64,000 bases of DNA from Acidimicrobiales bacterium (GTDB lineage: Bacteria; Actinomycetota; Acidimicrobiia; Acidimicrobiales; Iamiaceae): NCBI GenBank assembly GCA_035547835.1, contig DASZTW010000005.1, forward strand, positions 496,001-560,000. Reading direction: 5' to 3'. The position numbers and the translations under genes are program-made. Position 1 is the first letter of the stretch. Every line of letters starts with the position of its first letter. A model generated the notes under the pieces. That model ran no database searches and was not told where the DNA came from. It saw only the letters and a list, made by a program, of their open reading frames with translations. Positions 4,149-33,226 of this stretch are shown here, one piece after another.

Positions 4149-4808
4149 GTGCCTGCGACCGACCCACGTCCGCGCATCGCCCCTGGGACCCCACGCGACC
4201 TCGGCTTGGTCAACACCGTGATCGCCAGGGTGCTCGGAGCCGCCACCGGCGGACCGCCGCCCAACGTGTTCACCACCCTCGGGCGCAACCGGCGGTTGTT
4301 CCGCTCGTGGCTCCGGTTCGCGAGCGGACTCATGCCGGGCGGGCGTCTGCCACGGATCGACACCGAGCTGGTGATCTTGCGAGTGGCGCACCTCAACCAT
4401 TGCGAGTACGAGTGGGACCAGCACACCCGCCTCGCCCGCGACGCCGGCCTCACCGATGCGGACCTCGAGCGCGTCACGACCGACGTCCACCACGACGAGG
4501 CCAATGACTGGACCGGCCGCCAAGCGCTGCTGTTGCGCGTGACCGACGAGCTGTCGAACGACCGCACCCTGTCAGCGGACGCCTGGGAACAGGTGCACGC
4601 CCAGTTCGACGACCAGGAGGTCATCGAACTGTTCTTGCTCATCGGGCACTACGTGATGCTCGCCATGACCATCAACGCGCTCGGCATCGCGGTCGACCCG
4701 CCGCCCACCCGCCAGCCCGGCACGTTCGTGCGGGCGGCCCGATCGGCCCTCGAACGACGCGGCACCTCGACCCCGCCGACAACCACCGATCATGAAGGAC
4801 GCACCTGA
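4149..4808 (+). CDS. Carboxymuconolactone decarboxylase (CMD/AhpD-like) family protein
   Basis: The 219-residue all-helical protein contains DTELVILRVAHLNHCEYEWD, with a single Cys and a His eight residues on, the remnant of the CxxxH active site of the CMD/AhpD fold. AhpD itself has CxxC and peroxidase activity; many actinobacterial relatives have one Cys and unknown activity. I chose the GTG at 4149 because TATCCT at 4136-4141 looks like a -10 box about 7 nt before it (probable leaderless mRNA). An in-frame ATG at 4116 would lie inside the operator-like repeat. The stop overlaps the start of the SDR gene (TGATG), so the two are co-translated. Confidence 0.7.
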   Translation: MPATDPRPRIAPGTPRDLGLVNTVIARVLGAATGGPPPNVFTTLGRNRRLFRSWLRFASGLMPGGRLPRIDTELVILRVAHLNHCEYEWDQHTRLARDAGLTDADLERVTTDVHHDEANDWTGRQALLLRVTDELSNDRTLSADAWEQVHAQFDDQEVIELFLLIGHYVMLAMTINALGIAVDPPPTRQPGTFVRAARSALERRGTSTPPTTTDHEGRT

Positions 4809-8089: not shown

Positions 8090-9586
8090 GTGGAACACCT
8101 CGACGTACTCATCGTCGGCGCAGGGCTTTCGGGCATCGGCGCCGGCCACTACATCCAGACCCAGTGCCCGTGGGCCTCGTACGCGATCTTCGAGTCGCGC
8201 GATGCCATCGGTGGCACGTGGGACCTTTTCCGCTACCCGGGCGTCCGCTCCGACTCCGACATGTTCACCCTCGGCTACTCCTTCGCGCCCTGGCAGGACG
8301 ACAAGGCCATCGCCGACGGCGCGTCGATCCTCCGCTACATCAACAAGACCGCGGCCGACGAAGGCATCGACGAAAAGATCCGGTTCCACCACCGCATCAC
8401 GAAAGCCGACTGGTCGTCCGACGACGCCGTCTGGCGCGTCACCGCCACCCGCACCGACACCGGCGAGACCATCGAGCTGACCGCCGGCTTCGTGTTCTCG
8501 TGCTCGGGCTACTACCGCTACGACCAGGGCTACCTCCCCGACTTCGAGGGGAAGGACCGCTTCGAGGGCACGATCGTCCACCCCCAGCATTGGCCCGAGG
8601 ACCTCGATTACGCCGGCAAGCGCGTGGTGGTCATCGGGAGCGGCGCCACCGCCGTCACGCTGATCCCATCGATGGCCGACGCAGCGGCGCACGTCACGAT
8701 GCTTCAGCGCTCCCCCACGTACATCGTCGCGGCACCCGACAAGGACCCGCTTGCCAACTTGCTGCGGCGCGTCCTCCCCTCCCGCATCTCTGGGCCCACC
8801 ATCAAGTGGATGCACGCGCTCGGCACCCAAGGGCTGTTCCAGCTCAGCCAGCGCCGGCCCGAGCTGGTGAAGAAGCTGCTGCGCAAGGGGGTGGAGCGTC
8901 AGCTCCCCCGCGGCTTCGACGTCGACACCCACTTCACGCCCCGCTACAACCCGTGGGACCAGCGGATGTGTGTGGTGCCGAACGGCGACCTGTTCAAGGC
9001 CATCAAGGACGGGCGGGCATCGGTGGTCACCGATCACATCGCCACGTTCACCGAAAAGGGCATCCGGCTCGAGTCCGGCCAGGAGCTCGAGGCCGACATC
9101 ATCGTCACCGCCACCGGGCTCGACCTCCTCTTCATCGGCGGCATCGAGCTCACCGTCGACGGCAAGGAAGTCGACATCGCGAATCGCCTGGCCTACCGCG
9201 GGATGATGCTCGAGGGCGTGCCCAACATGGCCATGGCCGTCGGCTACACGAACGCCTCGTGGACTTTGAAGTGCGACCTCACGTGCAACTACGTGACCCG
9301 GCTGCTGAACCACCTCCACGAGACCGGGCAGCGCCAGTGCACGCCGGTGAACTCCGACCCGAGCATCGAGCGCCAGCCGCTGCTGGGCCTCACGTCGGGT
9401 TACGTGACCCGCTCCGCCGACCGGTTCCCGAAGCAAGGCTCCAAGTTCCCGTGGCAGGTCCACCAGAGCTATCTGAAGGACTACCGGGCGCTGAAGGTCA
9501 AGGGCATCCACGACGACGCGATGGTCTTCTCGAACCCCGGCCCGGCGGCGAAGGCCGCCGACACACCGGAATCCGCTGTCGCCTGA
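8090..9586 (+). CDS. FAD-dependent Baeyer-Villiger monooxygenase, EthA-like
   Basis: The 498-residue enzyme starts at GTG behind GGGGGATCC. It has an FAD loop VGAGLSGIGAG (residue 10 on), GGTWDLFRYPGVRSDSDM typical of EthA-type enzymes, and an NADPH loop VIGSGATAVT near residue 182. Long stretches (IVHPQHWPEDLDY, YNPWDQRMCVVPNGDLF, VGYTNASWTLK) match what I remember of mycobacterial EthA, which oxygenates ketones and activates ethionamide. The expected reaction is NADPH- and O2-dependent conversion of a ketone to an ester. It is cotranscribed with the ferritin-like hydrolase and probably controlled by the divergent TetR. The physiological substrate is unknown. Confidence 0.88.
   Translation: MEHLDVLIVGAGLSGIGAGHYIQTQCPWASYAIFESRDAIGGTWDLFRYPGVRSDSDMFTLGYSFAPWQDDKAIADGASILRYINKTAADEGIDEKIRFHHRITKADWSSDDAVWRVTATRTDTGETIELTAGFVFSCSGYYRYDQGYLPDFEGKDRFEGTIVHPQHWPEDLDYAGKRVVVIGSGATAVTLIPSMADAAAHVTMLQRSPTYIVAAPDKDPLANLLRRVLPSRISGPTIKWMHALGTQGLFQLSQRRPELVKKLLRKGVERQLPRGFDVDTHFTPRYNPWDQRMCVVPNGDLFKAIKDGRASVVTDHIATFTEKGIRLESGQELEADIIVTATGLDLLFIGGIELTVDGKEVDIANRLAYRGMMLEGVPNMAMAVGYTNASWTLKCDLTCNYVTRLLNHLHETGQRQCTPVNSDPSIERQPLLGLTSGYVTRSADRFPKQGSKFPWQVHQSYLKDYRALKVKGIHDDAMVFSNPGPAAKAADTPESAVA

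Positions 9587-18293: not shown

Positions 18294-18296
<3 letters not shown>
18279..18296. terminator. Hairpin spanning the end of secA
   Basis: TGAGCCG-GCCC-CGGCTCA is a perfect 7-bp stem that contains the stops of both the methyltransferase relic and secA, which converge here. Confidence 0.4.
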
Positions 18297-21035
<2,739 letters not shown>

Positions 21036-21117: not shown

Positions 21118-21834
21118 CTACTCGATGTCGAGCAGCTTCTCCCGCACGGCGTACATGACGGCTTCCATCCGAGAGTGCAGGTGCAGCTTCTCCAAGATGT
21201 TGCGGACGTGGTTCTTGACCGTGTTCTCCGAGATGAACAGCTTCTGACCCACGGCCTTGTTGCTCAACCCTTCGGCGACGAGCCGGAGCACCTCGAGCTC
21301 GCGATCGGTGAGCGTGGGCGTCGGCACCGACGGCCGGGTGTCGGCCTGACGGGCCAAGGTGGTGAACTCGGTGAGCAGCTTGCCGGCCATCGAGGGCGAG
21401 ATCAGGCTCTGGCCCGACGACACCGACCGCACGGCGTGACCCACCTCCTCGATCGAGATCTCCTTGAGCAGGTAGCCGGCGGCACCGGCCTTGATGGCCT
21501 CGTAGAGGTCTTCCTCCTCGTCGGAGACCGTCAACATGATGATCTTCGCCGTCGGCACGACCTCCGCGATCCGCCGGGTGGCGTCGATGCCCGACATGCC
21601 CGGCATCCGCACGTCCATGAGCACCACATCGGGCGCGGACTGCTCGGCCAGGGCAGCGGCCTCCACGCCGTCGTCGGCCTCGCCCACCACTTCGATGCCG
21701 TCCTCGCTCTCGAGCACCATCCGCAGACCTCGCCGGAAGAGGGCGTGGTCGTCGCAGATGAGCACCCGCACCGCTGACAGATCCTCGTCCGCCTCGGCCG
21801 TGGCGTCGGGTTCATCCGAAGTCATCGCCTCCAC
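21118..21834 (-). CDS. NarL/LuxR-type response regulator
   Basis: The 238-residue protein has a receiver domain ([20 protein letters not shown], phospho-acceptor Asp in [14 protein letters not shown], Lys in GYLLKEIS) and a C-terminal LuxR helix-turn-helix ([18 protein letters not shown] then [14 protein letters not shown]). No histidine kinase is adjacent, so it is an orphan in this window. It sits 36 bases from hpf and 83 from secA in the same direction. A start at a second Met three codons in is possible. Targets are unknown; the location suggests control of stress or dormancy functions. Confidence 0.92.
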
Positions 21835-21869: not shown

Positions 21870-22484
21870 CTAGCCGGCTTCGTCGATCAAGCCGATGTCG
21901 CCGTCATCGCGTGCGTAGACCACGGCGGCCCGCGACGTGTCCGCGTTGGTGAAGAAGAAGAACCCGTGCCCCAGCAGCTCCATCCGCACCACGGCTTCCT
22001 CCGCCGTCATCGGCATCATGGCGAACCGCTTGCTCTTCACGATCTTCGGCTCACGGGTCGCATCGGCGCCCCCCGCAGCCGGCCTCGCGGCCCCCTCGCC
22101 GCCGCCGGTCGCAGGCTCGGCCGACGCCGCTCCGGCCGCGGGGACCGCTGCCCCGGCGTCGGGTCTGGCCGGCCGGACACCGCGGCTACGGCCCACCAGC
22201 TTCGACTTGAGGCGGGCGAGCTGCTGGCCGAGCTTGTCAACCGCCTTGTCGACCGCCACGAACTGGTCGGTGGCGCTCACTTTGGTGCGGACGTGGTGAC
22301 CGTGGCCTTCCAGCGTGATCTCGCACATCTCACGCTCGGCGACCCTCGAGTTCCGGTGCCGGGTGAAGTGCACCTCGGCACGCTCCATGTCGAGGAAGCG
22401 GTCGAGCCGGTTGACCTTCTGCTCGGTGAGCGACCGGAGCTTGTCCGACACCTCGATGTGTCGACCGCTGACGGTGATCTCCAT
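21870..22484 (-). CDS. hpf: Long-form ribosome hibernation promoting factor
   Basis: The 204-residue protein has the N-terminal HPF/YfiA domain (MEITVSGRHIEVSDKLRS to about residue 100), an Ala/Pro/Gly-rich linker, and the C-terminal dimerisation domain (VVKSKRFAMMPMTAEEAVVR-like, ending LGHGFFFFTNADT then VVYARDDGDIGLI). Long HPF makes 100S ribosome dimers in stationary phase. The ATG at 22484 follows GGGAGGGG at ideal spacing. It is downstream of the comF-like gene, as in other actinobacteria. Confidence 0.93.
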   Translation of the reverse strand: MEITVSGRHIEVSDKLRSLTEQKVNRLDRFLDMERAEVHFTRHRNSRVAEREMCEITLEGHGHHVRTKVSATDQFVAVDKAVDKLGQQLARLKSKLVGRSRGVRPARPDAGAAVPAAGAASAEPATGGGEGAARPAAGGADATREPKIVKSKRFAMMPMTAEEAVVRMELLGHGFFFFTNADTSRAAVVYARDDGDIGLIDEAG

Positions 22485-22512: not shown

Positions 22513-23142
22513 TCATGCCGATGGTAGGTCGGGCGACGGCAAGTCGGCACGGGGTGGGGTGTGCGCAGCCGCGAGCGCCGACACCTCGGCCGCGCCAGCC
22601 GAGCGCAGGACCCGAGCCGCCGCCGAGATCGACGCCCCGGTGGTGATCACGTCGTCGACGACCAGCACGCGTGCCCCGGCGGGGACCGACTCCCACGCGC
22701 GGCACGCCAGCGCGGGGCCTTCGGCCCGGTGCCGGGCGTCTCGCCCGGTCTGCGCCGGGCCCCGGCGCCGCACCAGCAGCGGCATCGCGCTGGCACCGCG
22801 CTGTCGTGCCACCGCGCGGGCGAGCAGCTCGGCCTGATCGAACCCGCGGGCTCGCCGGCGTTCGGTCGTCGTGGGAACCCAGCAGATCACCGCCGGGGGT
22901 GGGTCAGCGTCGATCAACCCCGCCATGCCCCGTGCCAGCCAGTCGAGCGCACCCCTGGCGTTGTGATACTTCAACCGGGCCACCAGCTCGCGCCCCGCAC
23001 CCTGGTAGCGCAACAGCGCCGCCGCCCGGGCGACGCCACACGGAGGCGTCAGCGCGCCACACGGCACCAGGCGAGCGAGGCACGACCGGCAGGGCGCCGC
23101 GCCTCGGCGGCCACAGATCGGGCACACGCTTCCCAGCAGCAC
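22513..23142 (-). CDS. ComF-family phosphoribosyltransferase-like protein
   Basis: The 209-residue protein has an N-terminal Zn-finger-like CPICGRRGAAPCRSC and a PRTase domain with the PRPP loop VLVVDDVITTGAS. ComF-like proteins support DNA uptake in some bacteria, but in actinobacteria without competence genes the role is unclear. Its place before hpf is conserved in the phylum. Confidence 0.85.
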   Translation of the reverse strand: MLLGSVCPICGRRGAAPCRSCLARLVPCGALTPPCGVARAAALLRYQGAGRELVARLKYHNARGALDWLARGMAGLIDADPPPAVICWVPTTTERRRARGFDQAELLARAVARQRGASAMPLLVRRRGPAQTGRDARHRAEGPALACRAWESVPAGARVLVVDDVITTGASISAAARVLRSAGAAEVSALAAAHTPPRADLPSPDLPSA

Positions 23143-23177: not shown

Positions 23178-24674
23178 TCAGTCCCCGTTCATGGGAATGC
23201 GGGGGCGGGTCGAGTTCGCCGGGTCGGCCTCGTGCCGGCGCAGCCGCTGGACCGCGTCGGACAACTGGCGGCTGACTTCCGCGAGTTGCTCACGGGAGCG
23301 TCGATCCGAGGTGAGGACCTCCTCGTGCAGCGCCGTGAAGGACTCCTTCGCCGAGTGCAAGCCACGCGACAGGTCGCGAAGCTCGGCTCGAAAGTCGTCC
23401 AGGTACGCCGAACCGGGCAGGTCGGCGAGGAGCGCGCCGACGCGGCTCTCGAGCTGCCGCAGCCCGATCTCGACCTCTGGCACCACTCGACCAGCCACCG
23501 CACGCGACACCGCCTCGGCGGAAGGCGCGTTGGCCGACTCCGACCCGTCGCCCCCGCCCCACGCCCCGCCGACCGCGTCGTGGACCACTTCGGAGAGCTC
23601 CTGGGTGTCGAGCTGGAGCGACACGTTGCCGAGCGCGGACGACACCGAGCGCTCGATCGCGGCCTCCACGGTCTGCTCCACCACCGACGCGAGCGCGGCT
23701 TGCACCGCCTGCTGCACGGCGGGCTGCACGGCGCCTTGCACCGCCTGGTGCACGGCAGGGTGCAGGGCGCTCTGCACGGCCTGATGCACGGCAGCCTGCA
23801 CCGCTCGCTCCACCGCTGGGTCGACCGCGCCGTGCATCGACGCGGTGACGGCCTCGGCAAGTGCCGGGCCGACGGCCGCCTGAACGGCGGGGCCAACTGC
23901 TGCGTCGACCGCGGTGCGCACGGCCGGACCGACCGCTGCCGCAACGGCGGGGCCGATCGCTGTGGCGATCGACTCGCCTTCGTCTGGATGCGGGTGCGCG
24001 CTCCCGACGGCCCCGAACGTGGTGACCCCCAGCGGGTCGACCGGCGCGTCGAAGAGCGAAGGGGCGGCTGCGTCGCGCAGGTCGCTCGGTGCGCCGATCT
24101 CGGCGTCGGGGTCGTCTTGGTGTCCGTTGCTCGCCGACGAGGTGGGGCTGGCATCCGTCGAGTGGGTCGCCGCGTCCATCGACGAGAGCGACGCGGTGTC
24201 GAGGGATCCCGCCCAGCGATGAAGCCGCTGGGCCCACGAGTCGTCGGCGTCCGCGCCGACCGGCTCGTGCGGGACCTGAAACACGAGCTCCTCGTGCGGC
24301 GCGGCACGCAACAGCACTCGAACGGTGCCGTCGGGCTCGAGCGACCGCACCTCCACGTCCTGTTCTCCGCCGACCGCCGCCAGGGCGCGGCGGATGGCGA
24401 CCGATGCGCTGCGGTACGAGAGGGCTGGCGGGCTCGGCGCAGGGCCCGGGGGGCCGTCGACGTCGCGGATGACCACCAGGTAGGTGGGTGGCTGGCTCGG
24501 GTGGTCGGCGAGGTACGTGTTGAGGAGCAGATCCTCGTCCCGCTCGGCGAGCTCCCCCATGAGCCGTGCCATCAAGCGACCGGACTGCTCACGGGATTCC
24601 TCCGTGATCGACGTCACGGCCTTCCGCAGCAGACCGTCGATCTCGCCAGAGGTCAACGAGCGGGTTGACACCAT
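23178..24674 (-). CDS. Uncharacterised coiled-coil protein A with tetrapeptide AV repeats
   Basis: No known family is recognised in this 498-residue protein. Residues 1-135 form a globular-looking domain (IDGLLRKAVTSITEESREQS, RLMARLMGELAERDED, then VEVRSLEPDGTVRVLLRAAP). A Ser/Asp-rich linker follows. Residues about 245-360 consist of AVxxAV-type tetrapeptide repeats (AVGPAVQAAVGPAL, QAVQSALHPAVHQAVQG), likely one long amphipathic helix or solenoid. Next comes VSLQLDTQELSEVV and a C-terminal coiled coil with LESRVGALLADL. There is no signal peptide or membrane helix. ATG at 24674 follows GGAGGTGG. The N-terminal domain and VSLQLD motif recur in the protein at 60541-61992, so they are paralogues. 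Confidence 0.75.
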   Translation of the reverse strand: MVSTRSLTSGEIDGLLRKAVTSITEESREQSGRLMARLMGELAERDEDLLLNTYLADHPSQPPTYLVVIRDVDGPPGPAPSPPALSYRSASVAIRRALAAVGGEQDVEVRSLEPDGTVRVLLRAAPHEELVFQVPHEPVGADADDSWAQRLHRWAGSLDTASLSSMDAATHSTDASPTSSASNGHQDDPDAEIGAPSDLRDAAAPSLFDAPVDPLGVTTFGAVGSAHPHPDEGESIATAIGPAVAAAVGPAVRTAVDAAVGPAVQAAVGPALAEAVTASMHGAVDPAVERAVQAAVHQAVQSALHPAVHQAVQGAVQPAVQQAVQAALASVVEQTVEAAIERSVSSALGNVSLQLDTQELSEVVHDAVGGAWGGGDGSESANAPSAEAVSRAVAGRVVPEVEIGLRQLESRVGALLADLPGSAYLDDFRAELRDLSRGLHSAKESFTALHEEVLTSDRRSREQLAEVSRQLSDAVQRLRRHEADPANSTRPRIPMNGD

Positions 24675-24811: not shown

Positions 24812-25966
24812 TCACGGCAGAGGCGGCCTTGAGCGCTCGGCGCCCGAGGCGGGATCGGCGCTCGGGGCCTCGAGCGCCGCGACCGTGTCACGGACGGCGG
24901 CCTCGATCCCGCCCGGGTGCACGTACGCCTCGTGGTCGAGGAGCACCAGCAGCCCGGAGCCGCCGAGCCGCTCCACCTGGGCCCGCGCCGCGACCGGGTC
25001 GAGGCCGCCATCGAGCACGGCGACGGCTGCCGGCAAGTCCTTCGGCCCATCGTTCGACACGTCTGGAGGGTCGGGCGGGCGTCGGTCCGGCCCGGCACCG
25101 GCCTGCGCCGAACTGCGACGGTGCACCGGGCGCCGGCAGGCGGCGACCTGGGCCACGACGTCGTCGGCGCCACCCCAGCGCGACCCGTCGATGGCGCCAC
25201 AGGAGATCACGTCGGCGCCAGCCAGCCGCAGCAGTCTGGCGAGTGTGTCGGGCGCGAGACCGAAGCGCTCGGACCGCAACCACGGCGCGAACCCGGTCCG
25301 GGGAGCGAAGACCGGTACGCCGAGGTCCGCTTCACGCAGCAGCCGGACAGTGTCGAGGCCTTGCACACCCGCGTGCACGATCAGGCCGCCGGCGCCCATG
25401 TCGACCGCGACGCTTGCCCGGTGCATCACGGTGCCGGCATGGCCGGTGACGTTCGCGAAGTACGTGACATCGTCAGGGGTGGCGGCGCCCACGGCAGCCA
25501 CCCGATCCTCGATCGGGCACCACGGCGGGTCCGCCAAGGCCACGGGATCGACGATCACGTCGACCCCGCCACGGACGAGATCCGCGGCCACCGATCCCAG
25601 CTCGCGCGGCGACGATCCCGATGCCGGCTCGAGCACTGCGCCGACCATCACCCGGTCGGGTGCATCGAACGCCGGACCCGGCAACAAGCCGTCGGGCAGG
25701 TCGAGATCGACCAGGCGGCACTCGCGCACGTCGGCCCGGTCCATGATCTCGCCGGCCACGACGGTCGCGAGGAGCAACGTGAGATCGTCGCCCCAGAACT
25801 CCACGGGGAACTCGAACGTCACCCGGCCGCGGGTGCCCGCCCCCGGCTCGACGTCGGCCACCTGCGCCCGCGCCGACGCCGACCCCCACGGAACCCCGAC
25901 TGACGCCGATTCGGCCAGCGAAGCGGCCGACTCGACCGGATCGAGCAGGTACGTGGCCCGGATCAC
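24812..25966 (-). CDS. Divergent RuBisCO-like protein (RLP)
   Basis: The 384-residue protein follows the RuBisCO large-chain layout: an N-terminal alpha/beta domain (residues 1-100, IRATYLLDP, CRLVDLDLPDGLLPGPAF), then a barrel. Barrel landmarks are VMVGAVLEPASGSSP (106-120), ADLVRGGVDVIVDPVALADP (128-147), PIEDRVAAV, ANVTGHAGTVMHRASVAVDM (171-190), LLRLAGADVIS (245-255), VLDGGLDP (317-324) and HPGGIEAAV (350-358). The catalytic KPK strand is LEPAS. The KxDE metal site is IVDPV. The HR pair has become APR, and the GGG phosphate loop is replaced by DHEAYVHP. All canonical catalytic residues are therefore lost. GTG at 25966 lies 10 nt after the SDR stop. The function is unknown; it cannot be a carboxylase. 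Confidence 0.8.
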   Translation of the reverse strand: MIRATYLLDPVESAASLAESASVGVPWGSASARAQVADVEPGAGTRGRVTFEFPVEFWGDDLTLLLATVVAGEIMDRADVRECRLVDLDLPDGLLPGPAFDAPDRVMVGAVLEPASGSSPRELGSVAADLVRGGVDVIVDPVALADPPWCPIEDRVAAVGAATPDDVTYFANVTGHAGTVMHRASVAVDMGAGGLIVHAGVQGLDTVRLLREADLGVPVFAPRTGFAPWLRSERFGLAPDTLARLLRLAGADVISCGAIDGSRWGGADDVVAQVAACRRPVHRRSSAQAGAGPDRRPPDPPDVSNDGPKDLPAAVAVLDGGLDPVAARAQVERLGGSGLLVLLDHEAYVHPGGIEAAVRDTVAALEAPSADPASGAERSRPPLP

Positions 25967-25976
25967 GGCTGGTCCA

Positions 25977-26831
25977 CTACCCGGCGCCGAAGAGCTCCAT
26001 CGCGGACGCCGGCGGCCGACCGGACACGATGCGCTCGACACGATCGGCGATGCCCTGGTTCATGTCCGGGTGGGTCAGCACGTAGAAGCGGCCCGTGCGC
26101 ACCGCGTCGACGGCGGCCGACGCCACGAGGTCGGGTGAGATGCCGTTGGCGATGAAGCCCGCGATGGCGTCGCGCGTCGCATTTTCGACCTCGGCGTCGG
26201 GATCGCCCGGCGCGGCAGGCCCGCCGGGGCGGTTCCGCGACGACTCGTCGATGCGGGTCTTGACCCATCCCGGGCACACCACGGACGCGCCGACGCCCGG
26301 CGCGACCATGGCCAGCTCAGCCGACAGCGTCTCGGTGAGCGTGACCACCCCGTGCTTGGAGACGTTGTAGGGCCCCATGAACGGCGGCGAGGTGAGGCCG
26401 GCGACCGACGCGGTGTTGACCACGTGACCTTCACCTTGTTCGACCAGCAGCGGGACGAACGCCTTGACGCCGTGGATCACACCCCACAAGTCGACGCCGA
26501 CCACCCAGTGCCAGTCGTCGAGCTCGATCTCCCAGAGCTGGCCACCGCCGCCCACGCCGGCGTTGTTGCAGATGACATGCACCGCCCCGAACGCATCGAG
26601 CGCGGCGTCCCGCAACGCCACGACGTCGTCCCACTTGGCGACATCAGTGACCACACCCACTGCTTCGGTGCCGCCGCCGCGGTGGCTGGCGACCACCTCG
26701 TGCAGCGGACCCGGCTCGATGTCACCCAGCACCAGCCGGGCGCCTTCGCGGGCGAACGCGGCCGCCATCGACCGCCCGATCCCCGATGCGGCGCCGGTGA
26801 TGACCACCGTCTTGCCGTTGAGCTCCTCCAC
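25977..26831 (-). CDS. Short-chain dehydrogenase/reductase
   Basis: The 284-residue classical SDR has ITGAASGIGRSMAAAF with the cofactor loop, Asp after the second strand (LGDIEPG, which favours NAD(H)), CNNAGVGGGG, NTASVAGL and YNVSKHG with the catalytic Tyr and Lys. GTG at 26831 follows GGGGGA. The downstream RuBisCO-like gene begins 10 nt after its stop, making a probable operon. The family is very large and the substrate cannot be told. Confidence 0.88.
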   Translation of the reverse strand: MEELNGKTVVITGAASGIGRSMAAAFAREGARLVLGDIEPGPLHEVVASHRGGGTEAVGVVTDVAKWDDVVALRDAALDAFGAVHVICNNAGVGGGGQLWEIELDDWHWVVGVDLWGVIHGVKAFVPLLVEQGEGHVVNTASVAGLTSPPFMGPYNVSKHGVVTLTETLSAELAMVAPGVGASVVCPGWVKTRIDESSRNRPGGPAAPGDPDAEVENATRDAIAGFIANGISPDLVASAAVDAVRTGRFYVLTHPDMNQGIADRVERIVSGRPPASAMELFGAG

Positions 26832-26916: not shown

Positions 26917-28629
26917 TCAGACGGGCTCCGCCTGCCGGCTGGTCTCGCCGCCTTCGACCTCGACGGGCACCATCTCCACGGGCGCCGGCAGCCCGGATGC
27001 GAACCCGCTGGGCGCACTGGCCTGCCCCTGCGGGTGCGACGAGCCGGCCGGCACGTAGCCGGTGAACTGGAACTCCGGCCGGTACGCCGGGCTGCCGTGC
27101 TCGTGGAGGTCGAGGCCTTGCAGCTCGCCCTGCTCCGACACCCGCAGCATCTTGATGGCGCGGACCCCGAACATGAGCGCCAGACCGCCAGCCAGCGTGC
27201 ACGCGGTGATCACCACGCTGCCCAACACCTGGGCACCGAGCTGCTGGAGGCCGCCGCCGTAGAACAGCCCCTTGACGACCGTCGACGTGTCGGCGCCGTT
27301 CGGCGTGGGCACGCCGTACTGGCCAGAGGCGAACAACCCGAGGCTCAACGTGCCCCAGATCCCTGCCCCGCCGTGGACGGCGACCGCACCGATGGGATCG
27401 TCGATCCGCAGCCACTCGATGAAGTCGATGCCCCAGATGCACACCAGCGCCGCGATGGCTCCGATGAGGACCGCGCCGGTCGGCGACACCCAGTAGCACG
27501 GGCAGGTGATCGCCACGAGCCCGGCAAGGAAGCCGTTGGTGGTGATCCCGAGGTCCCAGAACTTCACTCGCTTGTACATCCACGCCATGGCGACCAGCGC
27601 ACCGGAGCAGGCGGCCAGCGTGGTGTTGGCGGCGACTCGCCCGATGCCGGCGCTGTCGAGCGCCGACAAGGTCGACCCGGGGTTGAAGCCGTACCAGCCG
27701 AACCACAAGATCACGCCGCCGAGCGCCGCGATGGTGAGATCGTGGCCCGGCATGAGGCCACCGCCGTCCCGCTTGAACACGCGGCCCAGGCGAGGACCGA
27801 GGGCGATCGCTCCGGTGAGGGCCAGCACGCCGCCGATGGTGTGGACCACCGTCGAGCCCGCGAAGTCGTGGAAGACGACCCCGCCTTTGAACCAGCCGTG
27901 GAACCAACCCATGGTGCTGCCGAGCCAGCCGCCGGGTCCCCAGATCCAGTGACCGAGGATCGGGTAGATGAAACCGCTCACCCCGACGCTGTAGAGGAGA
28001 TCACCCTTGAAGTCCGTGCGGCCGACCATGGCACCCGATGTGATGGTCGAGCACGTGTCGGCGAACGCGAACTGGAACAGGAAGAACGCCAGGAACGCCA
28101 CACCGGTCGAGCCGTACGTGGCGGTGGCGCCCGCGCCGTTCAAGAAGAAGTTCGTGTGCCCGATGAGCCCGTTGCCGGTACCGAACATGAAGGCGAACCC
28201 GAACGCCCAGAACAGCAACCCGCACAACGCCGTGTCCGCGACGCACTCGAGGAGGATGTTCACCGTCTCCCGGGTGCGGGCGAAGCCGGCCTCCAACATC
28301 ATGAAGCCGGCCTGCATGAAGAACACCAGGAACGCCGCGACGAGCGTCCACGCCGTGTTCGTCGCGTTGACCACGTCGGTCACGTTCGGGGCGGCCGCCT
28401 GGCCCTTCACGAGGGGCATCGCGCTCGCGACGCCCGAGGCGAGCCAGGTCAGCAGAGCGATCGCGCCGAAGAGCGCGACGATGCCGAGCATCTTGGCGCC
28501 CAAGTAGACGCCGAAGAACTTCCGGCGCTCGGGGTCCCGCACGGCTGCGCGGACGCGGTCGCGCCAACTCAGGCCGACCGAGGGTGAGATGCCGCCCGCG
28601 GACACGCCGGCGAACGATGCTTGCAACAT
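26917..28629 (-). CDS. amt: Ammonium transporter Amt
   Basis: The 570-residue protein has about 11-12 membrane helices. Family landmarks are FFMQAGFMMLEAGFARTRET, FADTCSTITSGAM, HDFAGSTVVHTIGG with the first pore His, and VAVHGGAGIWGTLS with the second. It carries an N-terminal extra hydrophobic segment and a hydrophilic tail of about 80 residues (from FGVRAIKML), where PII proteins usually bind. No glnK gene is next to it. ATG at 28629 follows GAGGAGG. A 14-bp inverted repeat about 85-120 bp upstream may carry nitrogen control. Confidence 0.96.
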   Translation of the reverse strand: MLQASFAGVSAGGISPSVGLSWRDRVRAAVRDPERRKFFGVYLGAKMLGIVALFGAIALLTWLASGVASAMPLVKGQAAAPNVTDVVNATNTAWTLVAAFLVFFMQAGFMMLEAGFARTRETVNILLECVADTALCGLLFWAFGFAFMFGTGNGLIGHTNFFLNGAGATATYGSTGVAFLAFFLFQFAFADTCSTITSGAMVGRTDFKGDLLYSVGVSGFIYPILGHWIWGPGGWLGSTMGWFHGWFKGGVVFHDFAGSTVVHTIGGVLALTGAIALGPRLGRVFKRDGGGLMPGHDLTIAALGGVILWFGWYGFNPGSTLSALDSAGIGRVAANTTLAACSGALVAMAWMYKRVKFWDLGITTNGFLAGLVAITCPCYWVSPTGAVLIGAIAALVCIWGIDFIEWLRIDDPIGAVAVHGGAGIWGTLSLGLFASGQYGVPTPNGADTSTVVKGLFYGGGLQQLGAQVLGSVVITACTLAGGLALMFGVRAIKMLRVSEQGELQGLDLHEHGSPAYRPEFQFTGYVPAGSSHPQGQASAPSGFASGLPAPVEMVPVEVEGGETSRQAEPV

Positions 28630-28813: not shown

Positions 28814-30256
<1,443 letters not shown>

Positions 30257-30431: not shown

Positions 30432-31463
30432 TCAGCGGGCGAGCGCCGCCTTCAGGTCGTCGAGCACCGGGATCGGCCCCGGATCGACACCCGCGGCCGC
30501 CGCCAGCTCGAGACTGACGAAGTCGCCGAGCAGGCACAGGTCGAGGAGTTGGGCCACCTCACCCTCACCGGCCGCCCGCACATCGATCACGCCGCCCACC
30601 ACCTCTCGGCACAGCTCGGTGACGAGATCGAAGCGACGCATCTCCTGGGGGTGCTCGTGGTCGTGGCGCAGGTTGACGAGCGTGAAGACCTGCCGCGTGA
30701 CATCGCCGTGCTGGCCCCATCCGCAGATCTCGTTGTGGCACAGCTCCGGCATCGTGTTGGCGAATGCCGGCGCCTTGGCGTTCTCGTTCACCTGGCACTT
30801 CCATCGCTGCGCGGCGACCCGCCCGATCGGCCCGGCGCTGTACACCAGCGGCAACGTTCGGCCGATGGCACGGGCGATCGGCGCCGCGGGTGACTTGTCA
30901 CCGACGAGCTCGTCGCGACGCCGGTCGAGCTGCTCGACTGCGCGCTGGACCCACTCGGTGGCACCCGGGAACAGCCCCATCTTCTCGAACGCGACGAGCA
31001 CCGGCACGGCCATGGCGCCGAGCCCCGAGCGCGGCATCGCGATGTCGCCGGGGAGCCCGATCACCGGCGACCCCCACGAACCAGCCAGGTCCGCGAGCTG
31101 CCCGCCGGCCGTGACCGCAAGCACGCGACCACCCGACAGCGCCGCTTCTTGCACGGCTTCGATGGTCTCCTCGGTGTTGCCGGAGAAGGAGATGGCCACC
31201 ACCAGCGTCGACTCGTCGACGAACGAGGGGGGTTCGTAGCCTTTCGCGACGACGATCGGCACGGCCATGAAGGGTCCCGCCACCGCTGCCACGAGATCGC
31301 CGGCGATGCCACTGCCGCCCATGCCCAGCACGAGCACGTTGGCGATGTCGTCGTGTGCGGGCAGGCCCTCGAGGGCCTCCCCCACTCCGATGGCCGCCGC
31401 GACCTGCTCGGGGAACGCCGCCGTGACGCCCCAGATGTCGAGGGAATCGAGCCGATCACCCAT
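30432..31463 (-). CDS. Bifunctional phosphoglucose/phosphomannose isomerase (SIS)
   Basis: The 343-residue protein has tandem SIS subdomains: NVLVLGMGGSGIAGDLV and VAISFSGNTEETIEAV (phosphosugar-binding Ser/Thr loop). The C-terminal part has VNENAKAPAFANTMPELCHN with the catalytic Glu and His. The family interconverts fructose-6-P with glucose-6-P or mannose-6-P. Placed 9 nt after the Trm112 gene and next to manB, it should feed mannose-6-P to ManB and so GDP-mannose. Gene order matches the mycobacterial manB block. Confidence 0.9.
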   Translation of the reverse strand: MGDRLDSLDIWGVTAAFPEQVAAAIGVGEALEGLPAHDDIANVLVLGMGGSGIAGDLVAAVAGPFMAVPIVVAKGYEPPSFVDESTLVVAISFSGNTEETIEAVQEAALSGGRVLAVTAGGQLADLAGSWGSPVIGLPGDIAMPRSGLGAMAVPVLVAFEKMGLFPGATEWVQRAVEQLDRRRDELVGDKSPAAPIARAIGRTLPLVYSAGPIGRVAAQRWKCQVNENAKAPAFANTMPELCHNEICGWGQHGDVTRQVFTLVNLRHDHEHPQEMRRFDLVTELCREVVGGVIDVRAAGEGEVAQLLDLCLLGDFVSLELAAAAGVDPGPIPVLDDLKAALAR

Positions 31464-31711: not shown

Positions 31712-33067
31712 TCAGGTCTCCTTGGTGATGAGCGCGCGCAGCTCGTCGACCCGCGCGTCGCAGGCTTCGCGGGTGGCTGCCTCGAGGTTCAGGCGCAGCA
31801 GCGGCTCGGTGTTCGAGGGACGGACGTTGAACCACCAGTCGCCGAGGTCGACCGTGAGGCCGTCGAGGTGGTCCTGGTCGGCAGCTGCGTACGCGTCGCC
31901 GATCTGCTCGATGACCTGGTTCGGGTCGGCGACCTCGAAGTTGATCTCGCCGGAGTCGGCGTAGCGCTCGAACGGCTTGCGCAGCTCCGACAACGGCTGC
32001 CCCGAGGTCGCCACGAGCTCGAGCACGAACATCGAGGCGATCAACCCGGAGTCGGCCCGGTAGTTGCGCCGGAAGTAGTAGTGCGCCGAGTGCTCGCCGC
32101 CGAACGCCGCGCCCGTCTCGGCCATGACGGCCTTCACGAATGAGTGGCCGACCCGCGTGCGCACCGGGGTGCCGCCCTTCTCGGCGATGATCTCGGGCAC
32201 GGCCTTCGAACAGATCAGGTTGTACAGGATCGTGGCGCCGGGCTCCTTGGCCAGCACCGAGCTGGCGACCATCGCCGTGGTGGTGGAGCCGGACAGGCCG
32301 ACGCCCTGCTCGTCGACCACGAACACGCGATCGGCGTCGCCGTCGAAGGCCAGACCGAGATCGGCGCCCGAGTCGACGACCCGCTTGCACAGGTCGACTT
32401 GGTTCGCGGGGTTGATCGGGTCGGCCGGGTGGTTGGGAAACGTCCCGTCGAGCTCGGGGTAGAGCACCTCCAGCTCGAAAGGGAGCGCGTCGAACACGGC
32501 GGGCACCACGAGCCCGCCCATGCCGTTCGCGGTGTCGGCGACGACCTTCAACGCCCGTAGGCCGGACGTGTCGATGAAGGAGCGGACGTGATCGGCGAAG
32601 GCACCCAGCAGGTCGCGCTCGGTGCGCTTGCCGGTGAGCTCGGCCACCGGCAACGTCGCGCCGGCCAGCTCCTTGATCTCCGTCAGCCCCGTGTCTTGCC
32701 CCACGGGCGCCGCGCCTCGCAAGCAGAACTTGATGCCGTTGTACTGCGCCGGGTTGTGCGACGCCGTGAACATCGCGCCCGGCGCGTCGAGCGAGCCCGA
32801 CGCGAAGTACACCAGGTCGGTCGAGCACAACCCGAGGTCGATGACGTCGATCCCCTGGCTGCGCACGCCCGTTGCGAACGCGTCGACCAGGTCGGGACCA
32901 CTCGGTCGCATGTCGCGGCCGACCAGGATCTCCGCGACCGTGGCGTCGCCCCGCACGGCGAACGCGGCGAAGGCGGCACCGATGCGGTGGCACAGCTCGG
33001 CGTCGAGCTGGTCGGGAACGGTGCCGCGCACGTCGTAGGCCTTGAAGACCGTGTCGATGGCTGCCAT
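31712..33067 (-). CDS. manB: Phosphomannomutase/phosphoglucomutase
   Basis: The 451-residue protein belongs to the alpha-D-phosphohexomutase family. It has the phosphoserine loop TASHNPAQYNG near residue 100, metal loop DGDADRVFVVDEQG near residue 240, sugar loop GGEHSAHYYFR, and phosphate-binding RPSNTEPLLRLN at the end. It converts mannose-6-P to mannose-1-P for GDP-mannose. The ATG at 33067 is chosen; GTG four codons earlier is possible. It is first in an operon with the Trm112 and PGI/PMI genes. Confidence 0.93.
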   Translation of the reverse strand: MAAIDTVFKAYDVRGTVPDQLDAELCHRIGAAFAAFAVRGDATVAEILVGRDMRPSGPDLVDAFATGVRSQGIDVIDLGLCSTDLVYFASGSLDAPGAMFTASHNPAQYNGIKFCLRGAAPVGQDTGLTEIKELAGATLPVAELTGKRTERDLLGAFADHVRSFIDTSGLRALKVVADTANGMGGLVVPAVFDALPFELEVLYPELDGTFPNHPADPINPANQVDLCKRVVDSGADLGLAFDGDADRVFVVDEQGVGLSGSTTTAMVASSVLAKEPGATILYNLICSKAVPEIIAEKGGTPVRTRVGHSFVKAVMAETGAAFGGEHSAHYYFRRNYRADSGLIASMFVLELVATSGQPLSELRKPFERYADSGEINFEVADPNQVIEQIGDAYAAADQDHLDGLTVDLGDWWFNVRPSNTEPLLRLNLEAATREACDARVDELRALITKET

Positions 33068-33226
33068 GGCGCCGGCCACCCTACTTCGGGTGCTCTCCGC
33101 CCGGCGTCGCTCGCCACGCTTGGTTCACGGTCTCGGAGTTGCCGGCTCATCTCATCACCGCGCTGATCGGTTTCGGCGCGTTGATGCTCGGAGCCGTCTC
33201 GATCGTCCACTGAGCTCGGGCGCGTC

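Follow-up and report, generated by a model that had tools for sequence, protein, structure and literature searches.

The locus described here raises the question of what becomes of a RuBisCO-like protein (RLP) when its catalytic residues have been replaced. It lies in the window, the 64,000 nucleotide stretch of an Acidimicrobiales (Iamiaceae) genome that was analyzed, where the RLP gene occupies positions 24812..25966 of the minus strand and specifies 384 aa from a GTG start that aligns with the start codons of its relatives. We interpret the product as an orphaned relative of the RLPs of the RLP-MtnA type (see below). Both the open frame and the RuBisCO fold of its product had been proposed in a preliminary description of this DNA, and both were confirmed; the relation to RuBisCO is not a chance one. 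The catalytic domain matched the Pfam model PF00016 (RuBisCO_large) with 59.6 bits (3.8e-16, cut-off 30.1), and the N-domain model PF02788 scored 17.3 bits, below its cut-off of 20.7. The best PDB match, by sequence (phmmer, 1tel, 4e-19) and by Foldseek (1tel, E 9e-27), was the Chlorobium RLP (1tel, 1ykw), although identity is only about 24% and the EP and VDPV of the window RLP align with intact KP and KDDE in the Chlorobium protein. An AlphaFold2 model built on a 13-sequence alignment (mean pLDDT 80.7, pTM 0.81) has an N-domain plus a TIM barrel with eight strands, and in VIA-align it matched 340 residues of 2zvi (Z 36.4, rmsd 2.8), the same fold as MtnW (YkrW), the DK-MTP-1-P enolase of Bacillus. 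A relative (L030) models better (pLDDT 91.8, pTM 0.91) and aligns with RuBisCO and RLP chains at Z 38–40. Model confidence is low in a Pro/Arg-rich insert of about 27 residues (residues ~285–311; 25034..25114, minus strand) that is absent from 12 relatives. The NCBIfam matches were to the form III, OiaX and MtnW models, all far under their equivalog cut-offs: an assignment as OiaX decarboxylase was rejected at 70.1 bits (NF042437, cut-off 700), and MtnW gave 39.9 bits (TIGR03332, cut-off 513.6). A 26-base tandem repeat (24820–24874) within the 3' end of the gene falls in a C-terminal extension.

Active-site residues were located by alignment and are numbered according to spinach RuBisCO. At the positions of K175, K201, D203, E204, H294, G403 and G404 the window RLP has E, V, P, V, P, H and E. 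The catalytic Lys (K175), found within KPSLG or KPPLG in 12 relatives, is replaced by E113 (25628..25630); the KDDE motif (K201, D203, E204) aligns with V139-D140-P141-V142 (25541..25552), H294 with P222 (25301..25303), and the phosphate loop G402-G403-G404 with D344-H345-E346 (24929..24937), all on the minus strand. Alignment with form I RuBisCO and the other rows places S at the H327 position and D319 (25010..25012, minus strand; Gly in 12 relatives) at that of S379, while the K334 position is occupied by S in the 37-row alignment but by R when the protein is aligned pairwise with the PDB match. R295 survives as R223, directly after P222, and loop 7 retains its Gly pair 380-381. The other 36 RuBisCO and RLP rows all have K175, K201, D203 and H294, and 35 of them have E204, the exception being L049 with H. 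This L049 (genome G529) is a divergent RLP, with H for the Glu of KDDE and HP for HR, that groups with MtnW on long branches.

The motifs LEPAS, IVDPV and DHEAYVHP had been quoted correctly in the preliminary description, and the 37-row alignment bears out that neither the catalytic nor the carbamate Lys is left, and that the metal ligands and active-site His have gone too. The further statement that all canonical residues are gone is true of K175, K201, D203, E204 and H294 but goes slightly too far, as R295 and two loop 7 glycines remain; similarly, the HR pair is altered in its His (now P222) but not in its Arg (R223), and replacement of the GGG loop, though real, is not special to the window RLP, since the loop is already changed (GSAAY or similar) in relatives that keep the other catalytic residues. 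The carboxylase set of forms I–III (K175, K201, D203, E204, H294, K334 and GG 403-404) is not found in the window RLP, which falls within form IV as the introduction of PMC4958253 defines it, i.e., RuBisCO homologs with substitutions that rule out carboxylation. The Global Ocean Sampling report (PMC1821046) gives N123, K177, D198, F199, H327 and G404, six of 19 active-site residues, as poorly conserved in RLPs. Beyond known RLP variation of this kind, the window RLP has lost K175, K201, D203, E204, H294 and G403, the catalytic core, and no paper announcing an RLP without the Lys/KDDE/His set was found in the open-licence literature searched.

Relatives came from a scan of genome_contigs, which returned 12 actinobacterial loci, and from genome searches, which returned 14 genomes: nine came from the order, and widening to the class and the phylum added three and two, respectively. 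The two sets overlap in eight, giving 18 distinct relatives, and every one keeps the K175, K201, D203, E204 and H294 positions. Identity of the window RLP to the loci (L030–L041) is 44–50% for nine of the 12 and 37–38% for L039–L041. The tree and alignment comprise 37 rows, with genomes seen twice (G087, G089, G285, G255, G051, G559, G549 and G565) entered once, as the genome_contigs locus, and with two weak, uninspected matches (L008, L009) left out. In the tree the window RLP is a single long branch (1.08) within a 16-row actinobacterial clade with support 100/100, a membership to be read with long-branch caution, and this clade lies within a wider one of 19 rows (100/98). All other members of the 16-row clade retain the catalytic residues. 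The idea of a lineage without any of them was thus not upheld, as the loss is confined to one branch, and a deep separate clade is rejected by the nesting of the window RLP among actinobacterial RLPs. Within the same clade, L035 has G in place of R295, and L033, L035 and L036 keep Lys, KDDE and His with no MtnA seen adjacent (L033 ends soon after the RLP).

No second RLP lacking these residues was seen among the matches in searches of the family (24 genomes), order (397), class (395) and phylum (396), overlapping sets in which matches were viewed under E 1e-5, 1e-15, 1e-20 and 1e-20, respectively. The window's genome is the sole RLP carrier among the 24 of its family, with none in the other 23, and no close relative was found in the searches. 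The plasmid collection gave 170 records, all below 60% identity (31.8% being the highest among the 10 listed), and the scan of viral_contigs gave no relative. The actinobacterial RLP-MtnA group, as we define it (14 genomes and loci L033–L036), consists mostly of short proteins similar in length to the window RLP. In contrast to the rest of the group, the window RLP alone is without equivalents of K175, K201, D203, E204 and H294, has no MtnA as neighbor, with no MtnA match in its genome, and carries the insert.

The genes around the window RLP follow the anchor order of G031: PMM, PGI, SahH, RLP, ComF, HPF, response regulator and SecA. In the window, where all of these are on the minus strand, they are a phosphomannomutase/phosphoglucomutase (PMM, 31712..33079; 632.7 bits, cut-off 618), a phosphoglucose/phosphomannose isomerase (PGI, 30432..31463; 61–63% identity in G031, G087, G036 and G124), an adenosylhomocysteinase (SahH, 28814..30256), the RLP, a ComF-like protein (22513..23142; 77.5 bits, under the cut-off of 233.55), a ribosome hibernation factor-like gene that we take to be HPF (21870..22484; no NCBIfam match at 1e-20), a NarL-type response regulator (21118..21834; under the cut-offs of named models) and SecA (18294..21035; over cut-off). 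The window differs in having an ammonium transporter (26917..28629, minus strand), absent from those loci of the relatives and the family that were examined, and a short-chain dehydrogenase/reductase (SDR) between SahH and the RLP, and in having no MtnA. In G031 the full order is PMM, an 82-residue gene, PGI, SahH, RLP, MtnA, YczE, ComF, HPF, response regulator and SecA; G087, G036 and G124 run from PMM through MtnA and YczE (in G036 a gene on the opposite strand separates SahH from RLP), and the short contig of G089 shows SahH to MtnA, YczE and the response regulator. The locus is thus common to the window and to G031, G087, G036 and G124, and to G089 as far as its contig shows, which is only part of the RLP-MtnA group: G559, G549 and G565 have PMM, PGI, RLP and MtnA with no SahH between, G051, G255, G285 and G100 have RLP and MtnA beside other neighbors, and in G761 and G960 the two genes are apart.

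Identity between the window and G031 anchors is 46–68%, apart from 38% for SahH, and it is PMM, PGI, the response regulator and SecA (61–68%) that carry the synteny. The window SahH occupies the same place as in G031, G087, G036 and G124, but is only 38–39% identical to theirs and 77–81% identical to those of its own family; being of another type, though passing the same model, it was dropped as an orthologous anchor. The locus has accordingly undergone remodelling, and orthology does not extend to all anchors. The two SahH types (38% identical) can be compared at 28814–30256 of the window and 8403–9701 of L020, the same place in each, and both exceed the ahcY cut-off; between the window's family and G031, one type may have replaced the other in place. 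These neighbors also bear on an artefact, i.e., a chimeric assembly, frameshift errors or contamination. The assembly is a draft of 22 contigs, but the gene sits with conserved neighbors in a contig of 902,705 bases, next to a SahH that is close to those of the family, its frame is unbroken and can be aligned with the relatives over its full length, and the replaced residues are scattered substitutions and not a shifted stretch, so that this explanation is largely refuted and we consider it highly improbable.

The SDR gene (25977..26831, minus strand) does lie 10 nt upstream of the RLP, as described previously. Inverted repeats occur between the transporter and the SDR and between SahH and the transporter, from which the SDR and RLP may share a single transcript. 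A functional partnership of the two proteins, which had also been proposed, was rejected on the distribution of the genes. An SDR 53–60% identical to that of the window is present in the SahH–HPF stretch of seven of the ten family loci examined (one of them bounded by ComF instead of HPF, at a contig end), all without RLP, and is therefore a family trait of the locus, not tied to the RLP. An SDR adjacent to the RLP was found in none of 18 re-annotated relatives' loci; in G051 and G255 one of 29–30% identity lies three genes away.

MtnA is present in all 14 genomes with a residue-keeping RLP (fragmented in G549), adjoins the RLP gene in 12 of them, and in G031 scores 372.5 bits against TIGR00512 (cut-off 279). 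For MTA phosphorylase, 13 of the 14 gave a match, over cut-off in 11 and below it in G761 and G089; G960 gave none. In the window's genome there was no match to MtnA or to MTA phosphorylase, absences that rest on an assembly 96.7% complete. Among 17 other genomes of the family, MtnA was found only in G014, in two pieces, and a full-length MTA phosphorylase match in 12. Neither ARD nor MtnB exceeded its cut-off in any of 29 genomes; G960 has one weaker ARD match (24 of 27 bits), and weaker MtnB matches in 18 of the 29 are, by inference, other class II aldolases. The only PNP_UDP_1 place in the window's genome is L141 (contig C4, 3694–4446), a divergent nucleoside phosphorylase/nucleosidase-like protein with 94 bits to HpnG and 87 bits to MTA/SAH nucleosidase, both below cut-off; it could possibly be a nucleosidase that offers an alternative means of MTA disposal.

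Two known pathways provide a context for the relatives. In PMC4958253 and PMC5893883, the DeepYkr RLPs of R. rubrum and R. palustris are described as MTRu-1-P 1,3-isomerases of the MTA-isoprenoid shunt, acting after MtnP and MtnA. The relatives share the methionine-salvage context with Bacillus MtnW, but differ in having no MtnB or ARD over cut-off, and an MtnW-type enolase route is disfavored on this ground. With MtnA and MTA phosphorylase found and ARD and MtnB not over cut-off, the relatives resemble the MTA-isoprenoid route and not the Bacillus enolase route. By analogy with the DeepYkr enzymes, whose partners MtnP and MtnA they would share in genomes that appear to have no oxygen-dependent route, the relatives may carry out MTRu-1-P isomerization, and the RLP-MtnA group that they define is a candidate oxygen-independent MTA salvage route. 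For the window RLP itself, the likeness to DeepYkr is one of fold and ancestry only, as it is without the catalytic residues. No paper announcing an actinobacterial RLP-MtnA locus was found in the open-licence literature searched.

Loss of the job along with MtnA and MTA phosphorylase could have left a pseudogene in the making, open only by chance. This neutral decay is the main rival to the reading that we prefer, in which the protein is retained as a folded pseudoenzyme, and we regard it as rather doubtful. In its favor are the failure to find the two enzymes, the long branch of the window RLP, the low-confidence insert absent from 12 relatives, and the restriction of RLP to one of the 24 family genomes searched, the family having mostly lost the gene or never had one. 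The codon-position pattern fits as well: changes at positions 1+2 versus position 3 number 96:31 on the window branch and 31:28 on that of L030 (p=0.002; p=5e-5 against L031 and p=0.025 against L034), with third positions near saturation (0.48–0.58 different), and this 3-fold excess at positions 1+2, with about the same amount of third-position change on the window and L030 branches, indicates that selection has been relaxed or changed, which is likewise consistent with plain relaxation. The intact frame alone is weak evidence of constraint, as the probability of no stop under neutrality is 0.27 without indels, or 0.007 if indels make up an assumed 5% of changes. Codon-position GC (0.80/0.55/0.87) is gene-like and counts against decay, but it is not a decisive test of constraint, since neutral simulation hardly alters GC over the time needed. 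A similar reservation applies to the pLDDT of the model, which may be carried by the relatives in its alignment.

The location of the changes speaks against decay. In 12 relatives 72 columns are invariant, and the window RLP retains 56 of them; the losses affect 11 of the 22 barrel-mouth sites and 5 of the 50 remaining ones (Fisher p=4e-4). The mouth was taken as strand end to +5, a definition chosen once the lost residues were already known; with two alternative widths, p was 0.0007 and 0.001. A codon-aware neutral simulation predicted 5.2 of 16 losses at the mouth, with P 0.001 for at least 11. Outside the mouth, changes affected 5 of 50 invariant and 25 of 61 variable sites (p 2e-4; 3e-4 to 0.018 for four alternative choices of reference rows), although part of this contrast may predate the loss. 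As a control, L148, which is 51% identical to L030 (the window RLP being 48%), keeps its catalytic residues and has 1 mouth loss, 8 other losses and 6 gaps, a pattern distinct from that of the window RLP (p=0.011). Six extra control relatives jointly have 6 mouth and 19 other losses; of these relatives, L003 and L005 are near neighbors of base-set rows. The concentration of losses at the barrel mouth suggests that the fold is still under constraint at sites away from the active site.

Another reading is a rebuilt pocket, with E113, D319, D344, H345 and E346 beside the conserved D140 as a candidate metal- or ligand-binding site for a new reaction. These acidic and His residues lie where strands 1, 7 and 8 end, and D140 on strand 2; strands 7, 8, 1 and 2 are neighbors in a TIM barrel. 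Four acidic residues and one His stand where the 12 relatives have K, G, G, S/A/M and A/Q/R/G, and the accelerated replacement could reflect positive selection. Against this, there is no second sequence in which the five residues are conserved, and no gene linked to the window RLP stands out as a new partner, so that a new active site seems unlikely, more so than decay. If real, it would be a natural neofunctionalization of the RuBisCO scaffold, in which the whole enolization machinery was dropped after the pathway disappeared.

The preferred reading, of an orphaned MTA-salvage RLP that can no longer perform its ancestral chemistry and persists as a folded, non-catalytic pseudoenzyme, has in our estimate about an even chance of being correct. 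By synteny the window RLP is related to the actinobacterial RLP encoded beside MtnA, whose substrate, and presumably that of the ancestor, is most likely 5-methylthioribulose-1-phosphate, formed from methylthioadenosine (MTA) by MTA phosphorylase and MtnA. Both supplying enzymes were apparently lost from the window's genome, and the general-base Lys, carbamate Lys, Mg ligands and active-site His are gone from the RLP, whichever loss came first; we are highly confident of homology, residue loss and missing supplying enzymes. In RuBisCO, proton abstraction depends on Mg held in place by a carbamylated Lys, and with these residues gone the enolization of a sugar phosphate by such chemistry is no longer possible. 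Since the predicted fold and most of the non-catalytic invariant residues are kept, retention as a non-catalytic folded protein is most likely. A present role in ligand binding, or in a structural or partner function, is an evenly balanced proposition, and binding is a possible form of it. The history is preserved in a common locus, in relatives that keep the residues and in two supplying enzymes that were not found, making this a natural case of what becomes of the RuBisCO fold once its pathway is lost.

Several smaller features of these loci were also observed. Following the RLP in the window is a gene for a 498-residue protein (23178-24674, minus strand) with no NCBIfam match and no Pfam match over cut-off, in which 12/36-base tandem repeats at 23695–23804 encode an Ala-rich stretch of AV.QAV repeats. 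Perfect hairpins of 17–18 bp, unlike each other in sequence, lie between SahH and the RLP at 8358–8396 of L020 and 2696–2734 of L021, equivalent places in two related genomes, and neither position has an Rfam match. In L020, a raiA RNA (4279–4529) adjoins the HPF gene.
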